Under the pieces are notes generated by a model. The model saw nothing but the letters and a program-made list of their open reading frames with translations. It ran no database searches and was not told the DNA's origin. A program made the translations under genes and the position numbers. From a virus: DNA of 22,784 nt. The DNA is taken from the IMG/VR virus record IMGVR_UViG_3300008050_000347, positions 1 to 22,784 of that record; one strand, 5' to 3'. This document shows positions 11,498-22,784 of the stretch, in pieces. How positions within the stretch are numbered: position 1 is the first letter of the stretch; each line of letters starts with the position of its first letter.

Positions 11498-11680
11498 ATG
11501 AAAACGCATTACCTACTCGACCACAAGCAATCCGCATGTGGTCTTCATAAACCCCGCCGGGCCACAAAGCGAGTCAACTCCGTCGACTGCCCGTCCTGTC
11601 TCGCATGGATAGAGAAGAACTTGAAAATCCGTGCTGAACAAATACACAGGAAAGCGGGGGGGAACACTCATGCTCAGTAA
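11498..11680 (+). CDS. Small CxxC protein, probable zinc-binding
   Basis: A 60-residue protein with ATG at 11498 and a GAGG ribosome binding site 10 bases upstream. The frame is open further upstream, but only this ATG has a binding site. The sequence HYLLDHKQSACGLHKP followed by RVNSVDCPSCLAWIEK resembles small phage proteins with a H...C and a CxxC that together probably bind one zinc ion (His2, Cys13, CPSC). It ends KAGGNTHAQ and overlaps the PrimPol start by 11 bases, so the two are likely co-translated. Function is not known; small zinc proteins of this type are common in early phage operons. Confidence 0.6.
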   Translation: MKTHYLLDHKQSACGLHKPRRATKRVNSVDCPSCLAWIEKNLKIRAEQIHRKAGGNTHAQ

Positions 11681-13778
11681 CATCCTCTCGGAACTCCAGG
11701 CCTTGGACCAATGGGTCTGCTGGCAGTACGAAGAACGCAACGGCCGCCCCACCAAAGTCCCCAGGCAGTCCAACGGAGATCTAGCGAGCGCGACAAACCC
11801 GGCCACATGGACAAGTTTCAGCAATGCGCGAGACGCTGTCGAAGAGTGCGGATTCAGCGGCCTGGGATTCGTGTTCACGGAAAGCGACCCCTATATCGGG
11901 ATCGACGTGGACGGGAGCATAGACGACGAACTCGTCCAGTTCATGGACAGTTATACGGAGAGGTCCCCGTCGGGCACAGGTGTCCACATCTTTATCAAAG
12001 GGGAGCTCCCAGACGGGGGCCGGGGGCGCCGGAGCGGGAAACTGGAGGTCTACGCTCGCGAGCGGTTCTTCACCATGACAGGGCAGGTATATCACGATGC
12101 GCCTATCCGGTCGGATGCGGAAAAGCTCGCACAGTTCATGGCCTACTTCCCAGAGCGCAACGAAACAGTCTTGGAGGACGTCGTCGAAGGGGAGCCTCCT
12201 TTGCGCGACGATGAGGTTTTGACTGCCGTGCGCACGAGCGCACAATCCGCCGTATTCGCCAAGCTATGGGATGGAGACTGGCAGGACACCCACGAGTCGC
12301 AGTCCGACGCGGACGCCGCGCTGTTGAGTCGCTTGCGGTTTTGGACTGGAGGACACCGGGCGCAGAGTCTGCGGTTATTTGGGCAATCCATGCTCGGGCG
12401 ACGCGACAAGTGGAGCCGGGAGGATTATCAGGTGGCGACATGGGACGCTATAAACAGAGGCATAGTGCGCGACATCGCTCCCGTGGACATCCGCGTCCCG
12501 ATGTTCCTGCGTCCGGATGTCGCTGTCGAGGCCGGGCTCTGTGATGTGGAGCAGATCCGGCAGACGTGCGACGCGGCAGTTCGCACAGCTATTCGAGGGA
12601 CTGTCCTGGGGGCCCTCGTTACAGAACTCGAGGCGGTGACGGATCCACCTCTCCCGCTCGCGCTCACGCTTCCGAAGGCCTACGCAATCGCCGGGGCCGC
12701 GCTCACAAGCCGGACGAGCAACCCGCTCGCTTCAGGAGGCCGGGGCGTTGGGCTCGCCAAAGTTGTGATCAACACCGCCGGGGGCCAGGCGTGCAACGTA
12801 TACGCGCTCACCGTTTCGGAGTCCGCCACGGGAAAAGACATCGGGGGCGTGCTCTCTAGCTTTGCCCACGAAAGAAAGTGGCATATCGGGGGCACGGGGT
12901 CCACGGAGGGCCTGCTCGATGCGCTCGCCGCGAAACAGGGAAAGCCTGTCATTATGGAGATCGGAGAGTTTCAGAACTGGGTGGATCAAAGGCACTGGCA
13001 AGCGAAGGCCGCCCCCATGGTCACGGACATGTTCAATAAATACTGGTTCGAGATGTCCCTGTCTCAACGAGGGGAGAATGTAAAGCCCCGGGCGTCGAAC
13101 TACTGCGCTCTGAGCATCACCGCCAATGTACAGCCTGCCGTGATGCAGAGATTCAGCTCAGACCGCGTCGCGTTGGATTCAGGGTTCCTGTCGCGCTTCC
13201 TCCTATGCAACAACCGAGACAATTCGTTCCGGTATGCGGCCTCCGGATTCAAGACTGCGGACGCGGTGAGTCGCATCGGGGAAGCTGTCTCCCCGCTTGA
13301 GGCGCTCCAAGGGAAAGTCTCGTTCTGTACACGCACGAGTTTCGGGGAGCTCGTCGACGAGTTTGAAGGCGCAGAGTTCGCGCCGCACTGGAAACGGTTG
13401 ATCAACGAGTACGGGCCCCGCTTCGCACTCATGCTCACGCCGCAGTGCGGAACAGTTCCGCGAATCGAAGACGAGGGATGCCGGAAGGCTGACGTACTCA
13501 TTCGCTGGCATTACATGCACGCGCTCGACGTGTTCCGGTGGTTTGATAAAGACGACGCGAAATACGAGAAGTTCCTTCACACCGTCTTCAAAGCCGTCGG
13601 GCGTTGCCGGAAGAAAGCAACACGCACCGCGCTGTCTCGTAAGGTAGGAGGAAGTGCGAAGCGCCGGAACGAGGCGCTCGAAGAGCTCGTAGAACGCGGC
13701 TATATAAAGGAGGTATTCAGCGGAAAAATCCTCCGATTCGCTGTAGATACGCCGCCCAGAGAGTGGGCCCAAGAATAA
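11670..13778 (+). CDS. Primase-polymerase (AEP/PrimPol) with C-terminal helicase-like ATPase domain
   Basis: A 702-residue protein from ATG at 11670, preceded by a G-rich site (GGGGGGAA); a GTG 39 bases upstream has no such site. Residues 1-145 hold the archaeo-eukaryotic primase core: WVCWQYEERNGRPTKVP, GFVFTESDPYIGIDVDG (catalytic Asp79 and Asp81), SPSGTGVHIF (His106) and EVYARERFFTMTG. Residues 200-265 (SQSDADAALLSRLRFWTGG and RQ-like LFGQSMLGRRDKW) match the helical domain that follows the core in NrS-1-like PrimPols. The C-terminal half has a loosely conserved P-loop SESATGKD (383-390) and a Walker B-like VIMEIGEF (427-434), as in DUF3987-type proteins, and a winged-helix-like tail (660-690). 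It should start replication by making primers and perhaps unwinding DNA, working with the downstream polymerase. Confidence 0.82.
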   Translation: MLSNILSELQALDQWVCWQYEERNGRPTKVPRQSNGDLASATNPATWTSFSNARDAVEECGFSGLGFVFTESDPYIGIDVDGSIDDELVQFMDSYTERSPSGTGVHIFIKGELPDGGRGRRSGKLEVYARERFFTMTGQVYHDAPIRSDAEKLAQFMAYFPERNETVLEDVVEGEPPLRDDEVLTAVRTSAQSAVFAKLWDGDWQDTHESQSDADAALLSRLRFWTGGHRAQSLRLFGQSMLGRRDKWSREDYQVATWDAINRGIVRDIAPVDIRVPMFLRPDVAVEAGLCDVEQIRQTCDAAVRTAIRGTVLGALVTELEAVTDPPLPLALTLPKAYAIAGAALTSRTSNPLASGGRGVGLAKVVINTAGGQACNVYALTVSESATGKDIGGVLSSFAHERKWHIGGTGSTEGLLDALAAKQGKPVIMEIGEFQNWVDQRHWQAKAAPMVTDMFNKYWFEMSLSQRGENVKPRASNYCALSITANVQPAVMQRFSSDRVALDSGFLSRFLLCNNRDNSFRYAASGFKTADAVSRIGEAVSPLEALQGKVSFCTRTSFGELVDEFEGAEFAPHWKRLINEYGPRFALMLTPQCGTVPRIEDEGCRKADVLIRWHYMHALDVFRWFDKDDAKYEKFLHTVFKAVGRCRKKATRTALSRKVGGSAKRRNEALEELVERGYIKEVFSGKILRFAVDTPPREWAQE

Positions 13779-13944: not shown

Positions 13945-14784
13945 ATGAAAACAGCACTGAAAAACACCACTCGCACTTTCGGAATCGAACTCGAAGTAAT
14001 CGCAGACGGACACCAAGTAGCTCGCAACATGACCGCCGCGGGCCTTCCTACACAGTACGAAGGATACAACCACCGCACTCGCAACGTGTGGAAAGTTGTT
14101 TATGATGCGAGCGTCAGCGGCGGATGCGAACTCGTTTCTCCCCCGCTTAAAGGGATCGAGGGGCTCGAACAGATCGAAACAGCGTGCCGCGTACTCAACG
14201 AAATGGGCGCTCGCGTTAATCGCAGTTGTGGATTTCACGTTCACCACGACGCTCGTGATTTCAAAGTGCAGAACCTTCGCAACGTTGTTCAGCTCTATGC
14301 CGCCTACGAAAGCGAAATCGATAAAATGATGCCTGCATCACGCCGCGGAAACGCGAACGGTTTCCTGCGCTCGCTTAAACAGCACGCTTGCCTTGAAACA
14401 TCCGCTCACGGGATCGTAGCGAGCCAGAACGTTTCCTACCGCACAGACGCTCGCTACACGAAAGTGAACGTCAACGCTTTCACACAGCACGGAACAGTCG
14501 AGTTTCGTCAGCACAGCGGAACGGTAGACGCTGAAAAAGTGATCGCATGGGTTATCCTCACACAGCGCATGATGGAACGTTGCAAAGGCACTCGCAAAGC
14601 ACCAACAGCCGAACAGGGCCGCATCCGCAACATCCTCCAGAGCCTCGGCATTCGCAACTGCGCAGGCGATCAGCTCGAAGCGGGAGAGCTCGCACTTCGC
14701 AACTATGTCAACGCTCGCCGCGAATATTTTCGCACACAGACTCGCCGCGAAGCTCGCCGTGCAACCCGTTCGCGGGTTGCTTAA
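13945..14784 (+). CDS. Amidoligase-family enzyme (COOH-NH2 ligase fold)
   Basis: A 279-residue protein with ATG at 13945 and AAAGGA upstream. Hallmarks of the amidoligase_2 group are in order: FGIELEV (residues 12-18, metal/ATP-binding glutamates), VVYDASVSGGCELVSPPL (51-68), CGFHVHHD (95-102) and a late NVNAFTQHGTVEFRQHSGTVD. Members are glutamine-synthetase-like ligases thought to join a carboxylate to an amine using ATP, making peptide-like metabolites or modifying proteins. The C-terminus is Arg-rich (RREYFRTQTRREARRATRSR). Two genes downstream lies a gamma-glutamylcyclotransferase-like gene, a partnership described for this family. The substrate is unknown. The 3' end of the gene itself forms a perfect TTCG-loop hairpin. 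Confidence 0.8.
   Translation: MKTALKNTTRTFGIELEVIADGHQVARNMTAAGLPTQYEGYNHRTRNVWKVVYDASVSGGCELVSPPLKGIEGLEQIETACRVLNEMGARVNRSCGFHVHHDARDFKVQNLRNVVQLYAAYESEIDKMMPASRRGNANGFLRSLKQHACLETSAHGIVASQNVSYRTDARYTKVNVNAFTQHGTVEFRQHSGTVDAEKVIAWVILTQRMMERCKGTRKAPTAEQGRIRNILQSLGIRNCAGDQLEAGELALRNYVNARREYFRTQTRREARRATRSRVA
14761..14780 (+). terminator. TTCG-loop hairpin inside the 3' end of the amidoligase gene
   Basis: GCAACCCG (14761-14768), TTCG loop, CGGGTTGC (14773-14780): a perfect 8-base stem. It covers the last coding codons before the TAA and is followed by TTAATTCAAC, a weak U-tract. It may act as a partial terminator or 3' stabiliser and would lower expression of the downstream genes relative to the amidoligase. 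Confidence 0.5.
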
Positions 14785-15096: not shown

Positions 15097-15603
15097 ATGT
15101 TTAACGAAATCCAACCAGCTCGCGTGTTTTACTTCGCATACGGATCCAACATGAGCAGGCGCCAGATGCGTCAGCGGTGTCCCTCCGCGCGATTCAACGG
15201 AGCGGCCCTGCTTCAAGGATGGACGCTCAAAGAGCGACTGTTCGCAGACATCGATCGCCGCAAGGGCGCGATGGTCCACGGGGTCGCATGGGAAGTCACA
15301 GAGCGCTGTGTCCGGTCGCTCGACATCTACGAAGGCGTCTCGTGCGGGCTGTACCAGAAAGAAAAAGTGAGCATCACGCTCGAGAACGGTAGCAACGTCA
15401 AGGCGCTCGTGTATCAGGAGACGCCCCAGGCCAAAGTCGAGCGCAACAACGACGCATTCACACTGTCTTATGTCGCGCTGTGCGCAGAGTCCGCCATTGA
15501 GTGCAAAGTGCCTGTGGCCCCCGTCTTCAAGCGTCGCTTGCGGGCGTACGGTAAGGCGCTCGGCAAGAGCGTGAACATTCACAAGGAAGCTCTGGGCTGG
15601 TAG
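15097..15603 (+). CDS. Gamma-glutamylcyclotransferase-like (AIG2/GGCT) protein
   Basis: A 168-residue protein with ATG at 15097 and a strong AAGGAGG site. The N-terminal FYFAYGSNMS (YGSNM, residues 15-19) is the substrate-binding signature of the family, followed by LLQGWTLKERLFADIDRR; Glu79 in LDIYEGVSCGLYQK is the expected catalytic acid. The C-terminal part (FTLSYVALCAES, KRRLRAYGKALGK) is typical too. Such enzymes release a gamma-glutamyl group as 5-oxoproline by attacking its own amide. Beside an amidoligase it may trim or reverse the amide bonds the ligase makes. The chemistry is inferred from motifs; the substrate is unknown. Confidence 0.85.
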   Translation: MFNEIQPARVFYFAYGSNMSRRQMRQRCPSARFNGAALLQGWTLKERLFADIDRRKGAMVHGVAWEVTERCVRSLDIYEGVSCGLYQKEKVSITLENGSNVKALVYQETPQAKVERNNDAFTLSYVALCAESAIECKVPVAPVFKRRLRAYGKALGKSVNIHKEALGW

Positions 15604-17450: not shown

Positions 17451-18605
17451 ATGCTAGGCCTCGACCCTCACAATTCAACGGTCAAGGCGATGCTCTCAAC
17501 GTGGGAGCGGCGGGAAGAAGATGAATCCCGTCGCCCCTACCTCGGGGCCTCGATGATCGGAAGTGAATGCGACCGTTTCTTATGGCTCGCGTTCCGATGG
17601 GCGTTCGCGCGTCCAACGTTCGACGGACGTATACTCCGTCTGTTCAACCGCGGTCACCGCGAAGAGCCTGTCTTCGAACAGGAGCTCCAGGCCATCGGCT
17701 GTGAAGTCGAGGGCACTCAGCACGAAGAGACGTTCGCCAAAGGGCACGGCAAGGCGCATTGCGACGGCGTTGTTCGCGGCCTTGTTGAAGCTCCAAAGAC
17801 GTGGCATGTCGTGGACTTCAAAACGATGAACGATAAATCATTTAAGAAGTTCCTCAAGTGCTCCTCCGAAGAGGACTTCGCAGAGGCATATCCCAGATAT
17901 TTCGGACAGCTCCAGATCGAGATGGCGCTCATGGGCCTGGACCGCTGTGCGTTGTTCGCTGTAAATAAGAACGACGACAGTCTCCACATGCTCCGTATGA
18001 GGAACGTTGCTGGCGACCATTACGTCGCGCGTGCGGAGAACACAGTAGAAGCAGAGGCGCCTCCTTGCACGGACCGCACGCCGACAGACTACAGGTGCCG
18101 CTTCTGTGACGCCTCCAAGATCTGTCACGGATTGGCGTGCGCGGAAATCAGTTGTAAGACCTGTTGCTACTCGACTCCTGTGGATGATGGGAAGTGGACT
18201 TGCTCTTTGAGCGGGGCCGCGGAACTTGTGCCCAACGAATTTCTGCAAATGGGATGCACAGAACACATCTTTATCCCCGGCACGCTGAAACTGGAGTACG
18301 CAGACTTCGGAGATGGGTGGGTATCGTACAGTAACGGGCTCATAAACGCAGGCGCAGGCACAGAGCTACCTAACGGCCTGTCTTTCCGCGCTCGTGCGAC
18401 CAGCGCAGAATTAAAGCGCAACTGGAGCGCGGTGAAGGATGGAGATTTCGACGCGTTGTTGGAGGAACGTATCTGCTTCCCAGAAAAAACACAGTTCGAG
18501 GCGTGCGACCCGGAGACGGACATTCGCAAGGCGCAACTCCTCGAGCTCATCGAATCCGGAGACGAAAACGCAAAGTCAGATTATTTCAAAGAATACGGCA
18601 ACTAA
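17451..18605 (+). CDS. Cas4/RecB-like PD-(D/E)XK exonuclease with Cys-rich tail
   Basis: A 384-residue protein with ATG at 17451, one base after the preceding stop. A longer frame extends upstream but overlaps the SSB gene. Nuclease motifs are GHREEPVF (69-75), CDGVV (Asp105), VVDFKTM (Asp122, Lys124) and GQLQIEMALMG (Gln153), the order seen in Cas4/RecB/lambda-exonuclease-like enzymes. Cys40 (SECDRFLW) together with C216, C219 and C225 could bind an Fe-S cluster as in Cas4. A further Cys-rich stretch (CAEISCKTCCY, KWTC) and a unique C-terminal region of about 140 residues follow. Context points to a 5'-3' exonuclease supplying single strands for the Sak4/SSB pair. Confidence 0.8.
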   Translation: MLGLDPHNSTVKAMLSTWERREEDESRRPYLGASMIGSECDRFLWLAFRWAFARPTFDGRILRLFNRGHREEPVFEQELQAIGCEVEGTQHEETFAKGHGKAHCDGVVRGLVEAPKTWHVVDFKTMNDKSFKKFLKCSSEEDFAEAYPRYFGQLQIEMALMGLDRCALFAVNKNDDSLHMLRMRNVAGDHYVARAENTVEAEAPPCTDRTPTDYRCRFCDASKICHGLACAEISCKTCCYSTPVDDGKWTCSLSGAAELVPNEFLQMGCTEHIFIPGTLKLEYADFGDGWVSYSNGLINAGAGTELPNGLSFRARATSAELKRNWSAVKDGDFDALLEERICFPEKTQFEACDPETDIRKAQLLELIESGDENAKSDYFKEYGN

Positions 18606-18624: not shown

Positions 18625-19050
18625 ATGAATAAAGTAACAAAACGGTTAGAAGTGAGCGCGGCTCACAACTTGGACCTGCCCTATGATTCGCCCTGTAATG
18701 GCCTGCACGGTCACAACTGGATCATCAACATCGAGCTGTGCTCCAACGCACTGAACGACGACGGGATGATCATGGACTTCAGCTTCATCAAAAAAGCTGT
18801 TCACGGGAAGATCGATCACACGTACCTCAACGAGTCTATCCCAGAGCTCAAGAACTCCACGGCGGAAAACATGTGCCTGTGGGTTCGCGACCAAGTCAAC
18901 GAGGCGCTCGGCACGTACGGCCCCGAGGCTCCGGTCATTGCGTTCTGCTCCCGTGTGGAAATCTTCGAGACGGAGGGCAACGCGGCAGTCTGGGAAACAG
19001 ACGTCGACCTCGACGAACTGGACCCAGACTACATCTACCAACCAAAATAA
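18625..19050 (+). CDS. queD: 6-carboxy-tetrahydropterin synthase (QueD)
   Basis: A 141-residue protein with ATG at 18625 and AAAGGAGA upstream. The T-fold motifs are complete: VSAAHNL (zinc His14), the catalytic cysteine in CNGLHGH (Cys24, zinc His28 and His30), VMDFS-like MIMDFSFIK and KIDHTYLN (His65), then NSTAENMCLWV. The enzyme converts 7,8-dihydroneopterin triphosphate, the product of FolE, to 6-carboxy-tetrahydropterin, the second step to preQ0. It heads a run of four preQ0 genes. The gene ends with a Asp/Glu-rich tail (DVDLDELDPDYIYQPK). A plain QueD rather than eukaryotic-type PTPS is supported by the Cys and neighbours. Confidence 0.92.
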   Translation: MNKVTKRLEVSAAHNLDLPYDSPCNGLHGHNWIINIELCSNALNDDGMIMDFSFIKKAVHGKIDHTYLNESIPELKNSTAENMCLWVRDQVNEALGTYGPEAPVIAFCSRVEIFETEGNAAVWETDVDLDELDPDYIYQPK

Positions 19051-19060
19051 GGATAAGCAA

Positions 19061-19726
19061 ATGACAAAAAACAACACGTTTCAAATCAGCGAGATCTTCG
19101 CGTCGCTCCAAGGGGAGGGACAGTTCGCAGGTATGCCCGTCATATTCGTTCGCTTCGCAGGCTGTGACCTCGAGTGCGCGTTCTGCGATGAAGGCGGCAT
19201 GTTAGGAAGCAACCCTCACCCGGCTAAGATGACAGCGGCCGATATCGTCACGCGGTGTGAAGACTTGGCCAACAGCCTCTATCCGAACATCGTGCTGACA
19301 GGCGGGGAGCCCACTATGCACCTCCGCAACAAGGAGGCGACCGCAGAGCTTCAACTCGCGCTCTCAGGATGCCATGTGGCAATCGAGACGAACGGTCACT
19401 TCCCTGTGCCGCCTTGGGTGGACTGGGTCACGTGGTCTCCGAAAGACGACATGATTCACCACAGGCTCGCTCCCAATGAAATCAAGATGCTCATGGACTC
19501 TGACGGAGACGTATACGGGGACATGACGCCGCAGGAGACGCAGGCGTTCGCGGAAACGGTTTCTGAGGGCACAGACGCGCCTCCCCCCGTTCTGTTCATG
19601 CAGGCGCTGACGTACGACGACCAGACGGATTCCGATCTGTCGGTTCAGCACGCTCTCGCGTTCGTTCGCGAAAACAAAGCATGGCGCCTGGGACAGCGCC
19701 TTCACGTTCAACTGGGACTCAAATAA
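19061..19726 (+). CDS. queE: 7-carboxy-7-deazaguanine synthase (QueE), radical SAM
   Basis: A 221-residue protein with ATG at 19061 and AAGGAT upstream. It begins FQISEIFASLQGEGQFAG, the typical QueE start, and binds a 4Fe-4S cluster through CDLECAFC (Cys35, Cys39, Cys42; spacing CX3CX2C). GGEPTMH (81-87) is the SAM/Mg-contacting motif. It ends WRLGQRLHVQLGLK, as in known QueE. It contracts the ring of 6-carboxy-tetrahydropterin to 7-carboxy-7-deazaguanine, third step of the pathway. Length is normal, so it should be active. It lies 10 bases after queD and 1 base before queC, consistent with one operon. Confidence 0.93.
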   Translation: MTKNNTFQISEIFASLQGEGQFAGMPVIFVRFAGCDLECAFCDEGGMLGSNPHPAKMTAADIVTRCEDLANSLYPNIVLTGGEPTMHLRNKEATAELQLALSGCHVAIETNGHFPVPPWVDWVTWSPKDDMIHHRLAPNEIKMLMDSDGDVYGDMTPQETQAFAETVSEGTDAPPPVLFMQALTYDDQTDSDLSVQHALAFVRENKAWRLGQRLHVQLGLK

Positions 19727-19727
19727 T

Positions 19728-20405
19728 ATGAATGATGAAAGAAAAATACTAGTCGTCCTCTCCGGAGGAATGGACAGCACAGTCGCGCTCTATCACGCCG
19801 TACAGGTGGTAGGCGCTAACAACGTCGGAGCAGTCACGTTCAACTATGGCTCTAAGCACAACGAGCGCGAGGGAGCTTGTGCGGAGCTTAGTGCGCGGCA
19901 CCTCAACATCACGGAGCATATCCAGATTGACCTCGCGTTCATGAACGAGCACTTCAAGAGCGACCTGCTCCAGAGCGGGGGCGAGATTCCGGAAGGGCAC
20001 TATGAGGACAGCAACATGGTCAAAACCGTTGTCCCGTTCCGGAACGGAATCATGCTGTCCGTTGCGACGGGCCTGGCGGAGTCCAAAGGTTACACGGAAG
20101 TGATGCTCGGCAACCACCAAGGCGACCATGCGGTCTATCCGGATTGCCGCAAAGAGTTCACGGACAGCTTCGCCGACGCGATGCGGGCCGGGACGTATGC
20201 AGGAGTCCAACTCGTCGCGCCCTTTGTCAACGTGCGCAAGGAAACGATCGCGAGCGTCGGCCACGAAATGTCCGTCCGGTGGGAGCATACGTTCTCTTGC
20301 TACAAAGGCGGGGAAGCTCATTGCGGTGTCTGCGGCACCTGCGTCGAGCGCAAGGAAGCGTTCGAGCTCGCGGGGATTCCGGACCCGACGTCTTACCTTT
20401 CGTAA
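19728..20405 (+). CDS. queC: 7-cyano-7-deazaguanine (preQ0) synthase (QueC)
   Basis: A 225-residue protein with ATG at 19728, one base after the queE stop; only a weak GGGA site is present, so it probably depends on coupling. The PP-loop is LSGGMDST (11-18); VPFRNGIML (102-110) and LGNHQGDHAVYPDCR (128-141) are conserved QueC segments; four zinc cysteines are at 191, 199, 202 and 205 (CYKGGEAHCGVCGTC). It uses ATP and ammonia to make preQ0 from 7-carboxy-7-deazaguanine. The gene is followed by a strong terminator, so the pathway operon ends here and folE forms a separate translation unit. Confidence 0.95.
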   Translation: MNDERKILVVLSGGMDSTVALYHAVQVVGANNVGAVTFNYGSKHNEREGACAELSARHLNITEHIQIDLAFMNEHFKSDLLQSGGEIPEGHYEDSNMVKTVVPFRNGIMLSVATGLAESKGYTEVMLGNHQGDHAVYPDCRKEFTDSFADAMRAGTYAGVQLVAPFVNVRKETIASVGHEMSVRWEHTFSCYKGGEAHCGVCGTCVERKEAFELAGIPDPTSYLS

Positions 20406-20417
20406 ACCCAAACCCAA

Positions 20418-20448
20418 GGGGCCTTCGGGCCCCGACCGTTTTTTTTTT
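20418..20448 (+). terminator. Intrinsic terminator after queC
   Basis: GGGGCC (20418-20423), TTCG loop, GGCCCC (20428-20433): a perfect six-base GC stem with the very stable C(UUCG)G tetraloop. A run of ten T residues follows at 20439-20448 after a five-base gap (GACCG), which is slightly long. It should end most transcripts from the Que operon; the next gene starts 18 bases further. Confidence 0.75.
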
Positions 20449-20466
20449 AACCAACAGGAGATAGAA

Positions 20467-21339
20467 ATGAAAAAAGTAACACTGACAGTCGAGGCGCTCA
20501 CTCAAATGGTCCGCGAGCGTTTTCCGGAAGACCCCCGCAAAGGCACGCTGAACTTCTACGGCGTTCCCCGTGGAGGCACGAACATCGCGTTCATGCTTGA
20601 ACGTCTGGGCTTCGGGCAGGCTGTGTTTCAGGTCGAAGAGGCGGACTACGTCGTGGACGACATCGTCGACAGCGGGCGGACGTGCAATCGCTACACAACG
20701 GAACTCGCCGTCGGCAAGCCGTTCTTCGCCCCAATCAACAAGCTCGCGGACTGGGATGAAAACTGGTACGTGTTCCCGTGGGAGGAAACGGAAGAGGCGA
20801 GCATCGCGGACTCCGTTGTGCGGACGATGCAGTATATCGGGGAGGACGTAACCCGCGAGGGACTTGTGGACACTCCGGGCCGTGTTGTCAAATCGTGGGG
20901 CAAGCTGTTCGAGGGATACAAGATGGATCCCAAGTCGCTGGTCACCTCGTTCTCTGAAGGGCGTTGCGATGAAATGGTCCTGCTCACGGACATCGAGTTC
21001 TATTCGACCTGCGAGCATCACATGATCCCGTTCTTCGGCCGCGCTCACATCGCGTACCTGCCGGGTGAAAAAGTGCTCGGCGTGAGCAAGCTCGCACGAC
21101 TGCTCGACGTGTTCGCTCGTCGCTTGCAGATTCAAGAGCGCATCGGCCAACAGGTCACAGAGTTCCTTATGCAGGAATGCGGGGCCCGCGGCGCGGCGTG
21201 TATGCTCGAGGCTCAGCACCTGTGCATGGTTGCTCGGGGAGTGGAGAAACAGCACAGCGTCATGAAGACGAGCTCGCTTCGCGGGCTGTTCCGTGAGGAC
21301 CCTGTCGTTCGCTCGGAGTTCTACTCGCTGATCAAATAA
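20467..21339 (+). CDS. folE: Fusion: phosphoribosyltransferase domain + GTP cyclohydrolase I
   Basis: A 290-residue protein with ATG at 20467 preceded by CAGGAG; the frame runs upstream into queC but this start has the binding site and follows the terminator. Residues 1-108 are phosphoribosyltransferase-like: VPRGG (33-37), the PRPP loop VVDDIVDSGRT (62-72) and a W-x-x-FPWE end (100-106), closest by eye to xanthine-guanine-type enzymes, though shorter. Residues 112-290 are a full GTP cyclohydrolase I: DVTREGLVDTPGRVVKSW, the zinc motif CEHH (182-185), FFGRAHIAYLP, KLARLLDVFARRLQIQERI and the second zinc cysteine in EAQHLCM (Cys253). GTP cyclohydrolase I makes dihydroneopterin triphosphate from GTP, the first step to preQ0. 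The N-terminal domain may salvage a purine base. Confidence 0.88.
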   Translation: MKKVTLTVEALTQMVRERFPEDPRKGTLNFYGVPRGGTNIAFMLERLGFGQAVFQVEEADYVVDDIVDSGRTCNRYTTELAVGKPFFAPINKLADWDENWYVFPWEETEEASIADSVVRTMQYIGEDVTREGLVDTPGRVVKSWGKLFEGYKMDPKSLVTSFSEGRCDEMVLLTDIEFYSTCEHHMIPFFGRAHIAYLPGEKVLGVSKLARLLDVFARRLQIQERIGQQVTEFLMQECGARGAACMLEAQHLCMVARGVEKQHSVMKTSSLRGLFREDPVVRSEFYSLIK

Positions 21340-21392: not shown

Positions 21393-22784
21393 ATGCACAC
21401 TAAAGAATTCAACATCTTCCTCGCCATTGCGACAGCCAGAGAAACGGAGGCCCTGCTCGGGGTATATCCTAACATCCTCAACTCGTATCACTATTTCAAA
21501 TCCCGTCCGGACTTCATCGCGCAGGTGAACGAGGCGACTGACAATTTCATTCTGGACTCCGGCGCGTTTTCTGCGTTCACGTGCGGCAAGTCAATCTATC
21601 TGGACCAGTACACGGAGTATGTGGACGCTATAGGCGCGGCAGACGGCACAGGCTTCGAGTTCATGACCCTTGACGTCATAGGAGACGGGTTGAAGACGTT
21701 CGCGATGTATGAGCGGTTTTTGGCGCAAGGCCGGGACCCCATTCCGGTGTTCCATTTCGGATCGGATTTCTCACAGCTCGTGACACTCTGCGAGATGGGG
21801 ATCAAGCGGCTCGCGTTCGGGGGGCTGGTGGGACGTGGAAACACAAGAGAGTTTTTGGACGAGGCATGGCGGACAGTGATCAAGCATCAACAAGGAACGC
21901 TCAAAGTCCACGGGCTAGGCCTCACGAACTTTTCAGACATGCTCCGGTATCCTTGGTGGTCTGTGGACAGCTCGTCTGTTTCCGGGTGCTACCGATTCGG
22001 CCGCGCGTTCCAGAACTACGACCGCAATAACCGACGATTCGGAGGCGCAATCAACGTCCACGATTACATGCGGCAGTTCTTCCCAACGTGGGAAGACCAA
22101 CCTATCGGTCCCAAGCCTAACGAGAGCATCGACGGGATCAGCCCTCAGTGCTTTCTGATTGAGAAACAATCAATGCTCTACATTGAGGCACAGGCCCACC
22201 TACGGGAGTTGCGGCTCAAAGAAACATACGCGCACCTCACATCGCAGGCGATGTTCAGCTTCTGTGACTGCGAGGCATGGATACCCGTTGCCGTTCCGGA
22301 CGACGAATTGCCGCTCGTAGCTCCTCCGTCTGTGCGGCTAGGAGGCGGAGCGAGTATTGAGTCCCGCCAGGTGGACTGGGACTTCAGTGCGCACACGATC
22401 GACACACCTGCGCCGGACTACGGCGTCCCTCGCGTCTTTGCGTTGGACTTCGAGACGTTCTACTCCACAGAGTACTCCGTGAAAAAGATGGGCGCATGGC
22501 AGTATACTCGAGACTCCAGGTTCAACGCCTATTGCCTCGGCATCGTGGGCGAAGAGCGTGCATGGTGCGGCCCTGTGGACTGCGTAGACTGGGAACGCCT
22601 GCGCGGGTCGACGTGCCTTGTCCATAATCAAGGGTTTGAACGCAACTGCTTTGACAGGCTCGAGCTCGACGAGATTGTGCCTGCGGATATCTACGCATCT
22701 ATCAAATGGGTGGACACCGCGGACATGTGCGCTTTCCATTGTTATCCCAGGTCTTTGGACGGGGCGATGAGCGCGGTGTTCAAC
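21393..22784 (+). CDS. dpdA: Fusion: DpdA-type DNA-guanine transglycosylase + family A DNA polymerase exonuclease region (partial)
   Basis: The frame opens with ATG at 21393 and has no stop through the right edge (464 codons). Residues about 1-240 are DpdA/TGT-like: FILDSGAFSAFTCGK (Asp55 in the DSGGF/DSGAF general-base position), FEFMTLDVIGDG, RLAFGGLVGRG (GG lid) and RYPWWSVDSSS (Asp192, expected nucleophile). Residues about 345-464 are a PolA 3'-5' exonuclease: FALDFETFYSTEYSV (Asp352, Glu354), LVHNQGFER (Asn412, Glu416 in the exo II position) and DTADMCAFHCYPRSLDGA. Residues 240-345 are a linker. DpdA replaces guanine in DNA by a 7-deazaguanine base. Only a weak TTGGA site lies upstream. 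The polymerase domain itself must lie beyond the window. Confidence 0.88.
   Translation, partial: MHTKEFNIFLAIATARETEALLGVYPNILNSYHYFKSRPDFIAQVNEATDNFILDSGAFSAFTCGKSIYLDQYTEYVDAIGAADGTGFEFMTLDVIGDGLKTFAMYERFLAQGRDPIPVFHFGSDFSQLVTLCEMGIKRLAFGGLVGRGNTREFLDEAWRTVIKHQQGTLKVHGLGLTNFSDMLRYPWWSVDSSSVSGCYRFGRAFQNYDRNNRRFGGAINVHDYMRQFFPTWEDQPIGPKPNESIDGISPQCFLIEKQSMLYIEAQAHLRELRLKETYAHLTSQAMFSFCDCEAWIPVAVPDDELPLVAPPSVRLGGGASIESRQVDWDFSAHTIDTPAPDYGVPRVFALDFETFYSTEYSVKKMGAWQYTRDSRFNAYCLGIVGEERAWCGPVDCVDWERLRGSTCLVHNQGFERNCFDRLELDEIVPADIYASIKWVDTADMCAFHCYPRSLDGAMSAVFN

Follow-up and report, generated by a model that had tools for sequence, protein, structure and literature searches.

The window analyzed here is the complete IMG/VR record IMGVR_UViG_3300008050_000347, a stretch of 22,784 bases from an uncultured phage. 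At its 3' end, an ATG opens a reading frame on the plus strand (21393-22784) that continues for 464 aa with no stop codon and runs off the end of the record. This fused frame encodes a full-length 7-deazaguanine DNA transglycosylase (DpdA), followed by the beginning of a family A DNA polymerase, namely its exonuclease region. A sequence-only reading had proposed both the single stop-free frame and the identity of its two parts. Translation confirms the frame, the motifs were correctly placed within it (DSGAF with D55, GGLVGRG, and YPWWSVDSSS with D192 on one side; LDFETFYS with D352/E354 and HNQGFER with N412/E416 on the other), and the two identities are upheld by the match to phrog_887 and by polymerase homology. 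Searched as a whole, the fused protein gave no match in Pfam or among PDB sequences, and a search of IMG/VR with this single protein found no close relatives.

The genes adjoining dpdA (18625-21339, all on the plus strand) belong to the preQ0 pathway: queD (18625-19050; PF01242 PTPS, 6.3e-26), queE, encoding 7-carboxy-7-deazaguanine synthase (19061-19726; TIGR04508, 2.9e-26, below the curated cut-off of that family; radical SAM, 6.1e-12), queC (19728-20405; PF06508, 2.6e-58), and folE, encoding GTP cyclohydrolase I (20467-21339; PF01227, 1.3e-66 at residues 115-289). This arrangement is best read as a queD-queE-queC-folE-dpdA cassette for dPreQ0, lying directly upstream of a family A polymerase gene. 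Since no genes for ArcS, Gat, or QueF were seen within the window, the base predicted in the phage DNA is dPreQ0, as far as an incomplete record can indicate. FolE carries an N-terminal extension of ~110 aa, whose sequence VVDDIVDSGRT resembles a phosphoribosyltransferase PRPP-binding loop, with a match to Pfam Pribosyltran at only E 0.13. Similarly long FolEs occur in other phages (L196 3048-3953, L318 3484-4512, and L324-L330), and the extended protein is perhaps a second natural fusion within the cassette. A Cas4-like exonuclease gene (17451-18605, plus strand; 35%-38% identity by tblastn to phage exonucleases with a Cas4 domain) precedes queD as a replication-module neighbor. Further upstream is a primase-helicase (11670-13778, plus strand) combining the NrS-1 polymerase helical-bundle domain (PF22763) with DUF3987, a PrimPol-type replication protein located upstream of a family A polymerase. 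Near one another on the same strand are genes for an Amidoligase_2 (13945-14784) and a gamma-glutamylcyclotransferase-like (GGACT) protein (15097-15603), possibly a pair for peptide or wall modification.

The DpdA domain spans residues 1-290 (21393-22262) and is of full length; it is supported by the phrog_887 match, by alignments A1, A5, and A9, and by Foldseek. Residues 4-207 match phrog_887, annotated as queuine tRNA-ribosyltransferase, at 1.6e-34, and relatives of this part are carried by 223 phage records; identity with phage DpdAs over the TGT-like barrel domain is 31%-35%. The NCBIfam model for DpdA (NF041059) scores the window protein at only 18.6 bits against a cut-off of 200, and an accepted relative scores similarly (L008, 17.7). 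Residues D55, H173, and D192 are invariant or nearly so in all three alignments. D55 and D192 are the catalytic aspartates expected of a TGT-type enzyme. Matched through the alignment to relatives, H173 appears to be the histidine that separates DpdA from DpdA2, in which it is lacking (PMC6884629). The window protein thus shares with phage DpdAs of the preQ0-pathway group (Queuovirinae, CAjan, 9g; Hutinet et al. 2019, PMC6884629) the same transglycosylase domain, the conserved histidine, and folE, queC, queD, and queE as neighbors. In contrast to the window chain, which continues into a polymerase, each DpdA of that group that we examined has a gene of its own, encoding about 270-315 aa.

Structural comparisons point the same way. 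The model of residues 1-342 is a barrel of moderate to high confidence. Its top Foldseek match in the PDB, at moderate model quality, is a tRNA-guanine transglycosylase (5egr, 7.5e-05), and it also matches the DNA preQ0 insertase DpdA (7ui4, 8e-04). The DpdA-only model retrieves TGT, and the two-domain model retrieves generic TIM barrels from the PDB. In a viral structure library, phage queuine transferases rank first, with phage DNA polymerases lower in the list for the second domain. The phage protein BFVD A0A6J5LU57 (877 aa, named ART-PolyVal-like) has a fold match to the DpdA barrel (3.4e-04) and is possibly another multidomain protein containing DpdA. The nearest IMG/VR relatives of the DpdA part (L168-L175, 32%-43% identity) are separate genes of 273-290 aa located beside folE, and the closest of these (37%-43%) belong to a shorter subtype carried by uncultured phages other than this one. 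They terminate at window residue 288-290, and their C-terminal stretch, (Y/H)LT(A/S)Q-x-KLF-stop, falls in alignment A9 on HLTSQAMFS at window residues 281-289; the window DpdA domain therefore runs through to its usual C-terminal residues. (A first full-length alignment had set the DpdA C-termini on the exonuclease and was superseded by trimmed rows.)

The second part of the chain is the 3'-5' exonuclease domain of a family A polymerase (22425-22784, plus strand), preceded by a polymerase N-terminal extension (residues 322-344, 22356-22424), of which codons 322-342 have a codon-usage score of 0.32, above 99.8% of non-coding controls. Residues 345-464 are 32%-36% identical to phage polymerases of the P26218 type, and at best 37%-42% identical, with E-values down to 1e-27, to a closer family (L106-L152, L248-L308). 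D352/E354 and N412/E416 align with the exo I and exo II motifs of the polymerase family; in exo II, Glu takes the place of the Asp found in many members, as it does in the P26218-type relatives. In the fold model, residues 345-464 form a confident separate domain, and residues 287-346 are unstructured. The record ends before exo III and before any polymerase motif. One could then imagine the C-terminal part as a stand-alone exonuclease, giving a DpdA with a proofreading-type nuclease for editing ends that are unmodified or mismodified, but we regard this as very improbable: full-length members of the homologous family measure about 590-750 aa (620-660 aa for the close ones) and contain DNA_pol_A wherever full length was seen (PF00476 in all three members scanned; 5.8e-25 in L106), and the rest of the window showed no family A polymerase. 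A polymerase domain is instead predicted beyond the contig end, in frame with DpdA.

Polymerases of the L106/L132/L248 type, related to that of Rhodoferax phage P26218, share with the window the exonuclease start ALDFETFY...HNxxF(D/E)...TADM. Each has a Met of its own 3-22 residues ahead of exo I, whereas in the window DpdA and a linker precede the motif. Among 82 distinct frames of this polymerase type (median length 650 aa), the Met closest to exo I is a median of 5 residues upstream of it (range 3-22), and none has 200 residues or more before the motif. Profiles of DpdA, the clamp, and the polymerases were run against all frames of 323 loci, some relatives being represented by their best 80 matches. 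Only the window's frame carries a polymerase domain among 183 DpdA frames (115 distinct, the window's included), and a C-terminal tail longer than 120 aa is absent from all the others. No DpdA fusion was found among about 80 relatives of the window polymerase, no second fusion in FolE-anchored loci (best FolE 55% identical), where dpdA genes are separate, and none in the 15 DpdA-like loci from one scan of bacterial and archaeal genomes. The IMG/VR scans with alignments A5 and A6 covered the best 80 matches each, and distant fused examples could lie outside them. That DpdA is ordinarily separate from the polymerase, as the sequence-only reading stated, holds for every homolog found. Two separate genes in homologs had been named in advance as evidence against a fusion; they do argue against a conserved architecture, but the fusion in this genome stands. 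Among the loci and matches listed, it was met in no more than one virus. Nor did we find a published DpdA-polymerase fusion in the open-access literature, in line with the earlier reading, which knew of none; the only fused protein mentioned in PMC6884629 is Gat-QueC.

The gene order around dpdA is conserved in other phages. Among distinct loci with at least 3 kb of downstream sequence, the next recognized genes within 4 kb of dpdA include a sliding clamp in 84 of 98 and a polymerase in 77 of 98, and the order dpdA-clamp-polymerase is annotated in R7M, EC151, and Stenotrophomonas phage ply2008005c. This neighborhood suggests that DpdA is functionally linked to the replisome. As in the window, dpdA lies upstream of the replicative polymerase in these three phages, but there all genes are separate and a clamp usually intervenes, whereas the window has one frame and no clamp. 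A similar arrangement is present in L196 (IMGVR_UViG_3300018080_000138), which shares with the window the order folE-dpdA-polA with no clamp between and is unfused: dpdA ends at a TAG, and the family A polA has its own ATG 10 bases on. Because dpdA usually precedes the clamp and/or the polymerase, and in L196 adjoins polA, a fusion would need few steps. In one other phage contig (L069, 1975-3860), a clamp-like gene comes after two DpdA-like frames in tandem.

The junction itself has the look of two adjacent genes that merged when a stop codon was lost, their former intergenic region now being translated as a linker. Codon 291, at the position of the stop in DpdA relatives, reads TGT and differs from TGA by a single base. 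Residues 291-321 (22263-22355) are probably former intergenic sequence now read through, as indicated by codon score, homolog coverage, and disorder prediction. Scored for codon usage with a model trained on the window's own genes, codons 290-321 fall in the 1st percentile of genuine in-frame stretches, a level reached by 12% of stop-free out-of-frame stretches, and codons 322-352 score like real genes, above every random control. Residues 291-321 are predicted to be disordered and are covered by no homolog in alignment A9; the chance of a stop-free run of 32 codons at this composition is 0.30. The earlier description of the linker as coding-like consequently holds from codon 322 onward, but not for codons 291-321; it also seems to have overlooked the probable intergenic origin of this segment and the strong ribosome-binding site (RBS) inside it. 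This RBS-like sequence, AGGAGGCGGAG (22340-22350), forms a duplex of -10.2 kcal/mol with the anti-SD, a pairing strength matched by 0.8% of 5114 internal positions. Its 11 bases are identical to those preceding the ATG of the gene at 15097, and the only gene starts scored with a stronger RBS are those at 15097, 1350, and 16088. Counted over both strands of the window, the hexamer AGGAGG is present 15 times, versus 9.3 expected. Five bases after AGGAGGCGGAG, at the point where the coding signal resumes, is an in-frame ATT (I322, 22356-22358), possibly a relic of the polymerase start or a weak internal one. A TTG at 22357 was rejected as a start, being out of the exonuclease frame.

We consider a recent, genuine DpdA-PolA fusion somewhat more probable than the alternatives taken together. 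Its recent age is suggested by the non-coding-like codons 291-321 together with the strong RBS, which also imply that the polymerase might still start separately. The dpdA stop codon would have been lost, the short intergenic region would have become a flexible linker of ~55 residues, and the start codon of the polymerase would have degraded to ATT with its RBS retained, so that DpdA, linker, and proofreading PolA would be made as one chain.

The strongest competing explanation is that the polymerase is translated, solely or additionally, from the internal ATT behind AGGAGGCGGAG, in which case free PolA would replicate the genome and the long chain would be a side product or a second isoform. 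The RBS before I322, stronger than those of most genes of this phage, makes separate translation of the polymerase possible and counts against the fusion, as does the weak RBS of dpdA itself, odd for the sole source of an essential polymerase. Yet bacteria initiate translation at ATT very rarely and only weakly, and I322 lies about 28 residues before the exo I motif, outside the range of the Met in relatives, which is absent here. No ATG, GTG, or TTG with an RBS occurs between codons 291 and 351, and for the remaining candidate starts from 291 to 366 the RBS is weak or absent. Moreover, the long chain would still be made, since dpdA lacks a stop. We hold an internal start to be unlikely, though worth serious consideration.

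More doubtful still is that a base or indel error, or an artifact in assembling a strain mixture, removed the dpdA stop from a virus with two ordinary neighboring genes. The TGT at codon 291 would need one changed base, and a slip of one base shortly before it would terminate dpdA at a TGA at 22265; the non-coding-like codons, the uniqueness of the fusion among distinct DpdA frames, and the location of the junction, 430-520 bases from the contig end, fit such an error as well. But the normal start of the polymerase is missing along with the stop of dpdA, so correcting one error would not bring back two normal genes. Furthermore, the junction has no homopolymer, and the 26 gene frames of the window are unbroken over 20 kb, which indicates a low error rate. 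Weighing against the fusion overall are its single record, the lack of a fused homolog among those found, the nearness of the junction to the contig end, and a record that stops before the polymerase domain.

If the fusion is translated as one stable chain with both domains active, as we infer, the transglycosylase would exchange guanine for preQ0 in DNA while the tether holds DpdA on newly made duplex, and the exchange could keep pace with replication and precede restriction. Action of DpdA at the fork through such a tether would gain indirect support from the dpdA-clamp-polymerase order conserved in other phages. We put somewhat less than even confidence in this functional reading, in which the transglycosylase moves along with the replicative polymerase and installs preQ0 in daughter strands during their synthesis. 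To our knowledge, when and where phage 7-deazaguanines are installed relative to replication is not settled. If true, the natural joining of DpdA to a polymerase, taken with the dpdA-clamp-polymerase order that is widespread among phages, would indicate that modification takes place at the replisome. The fused protein would also offer a direct test object, with both activities assayable in one protein and the linker as the variable.
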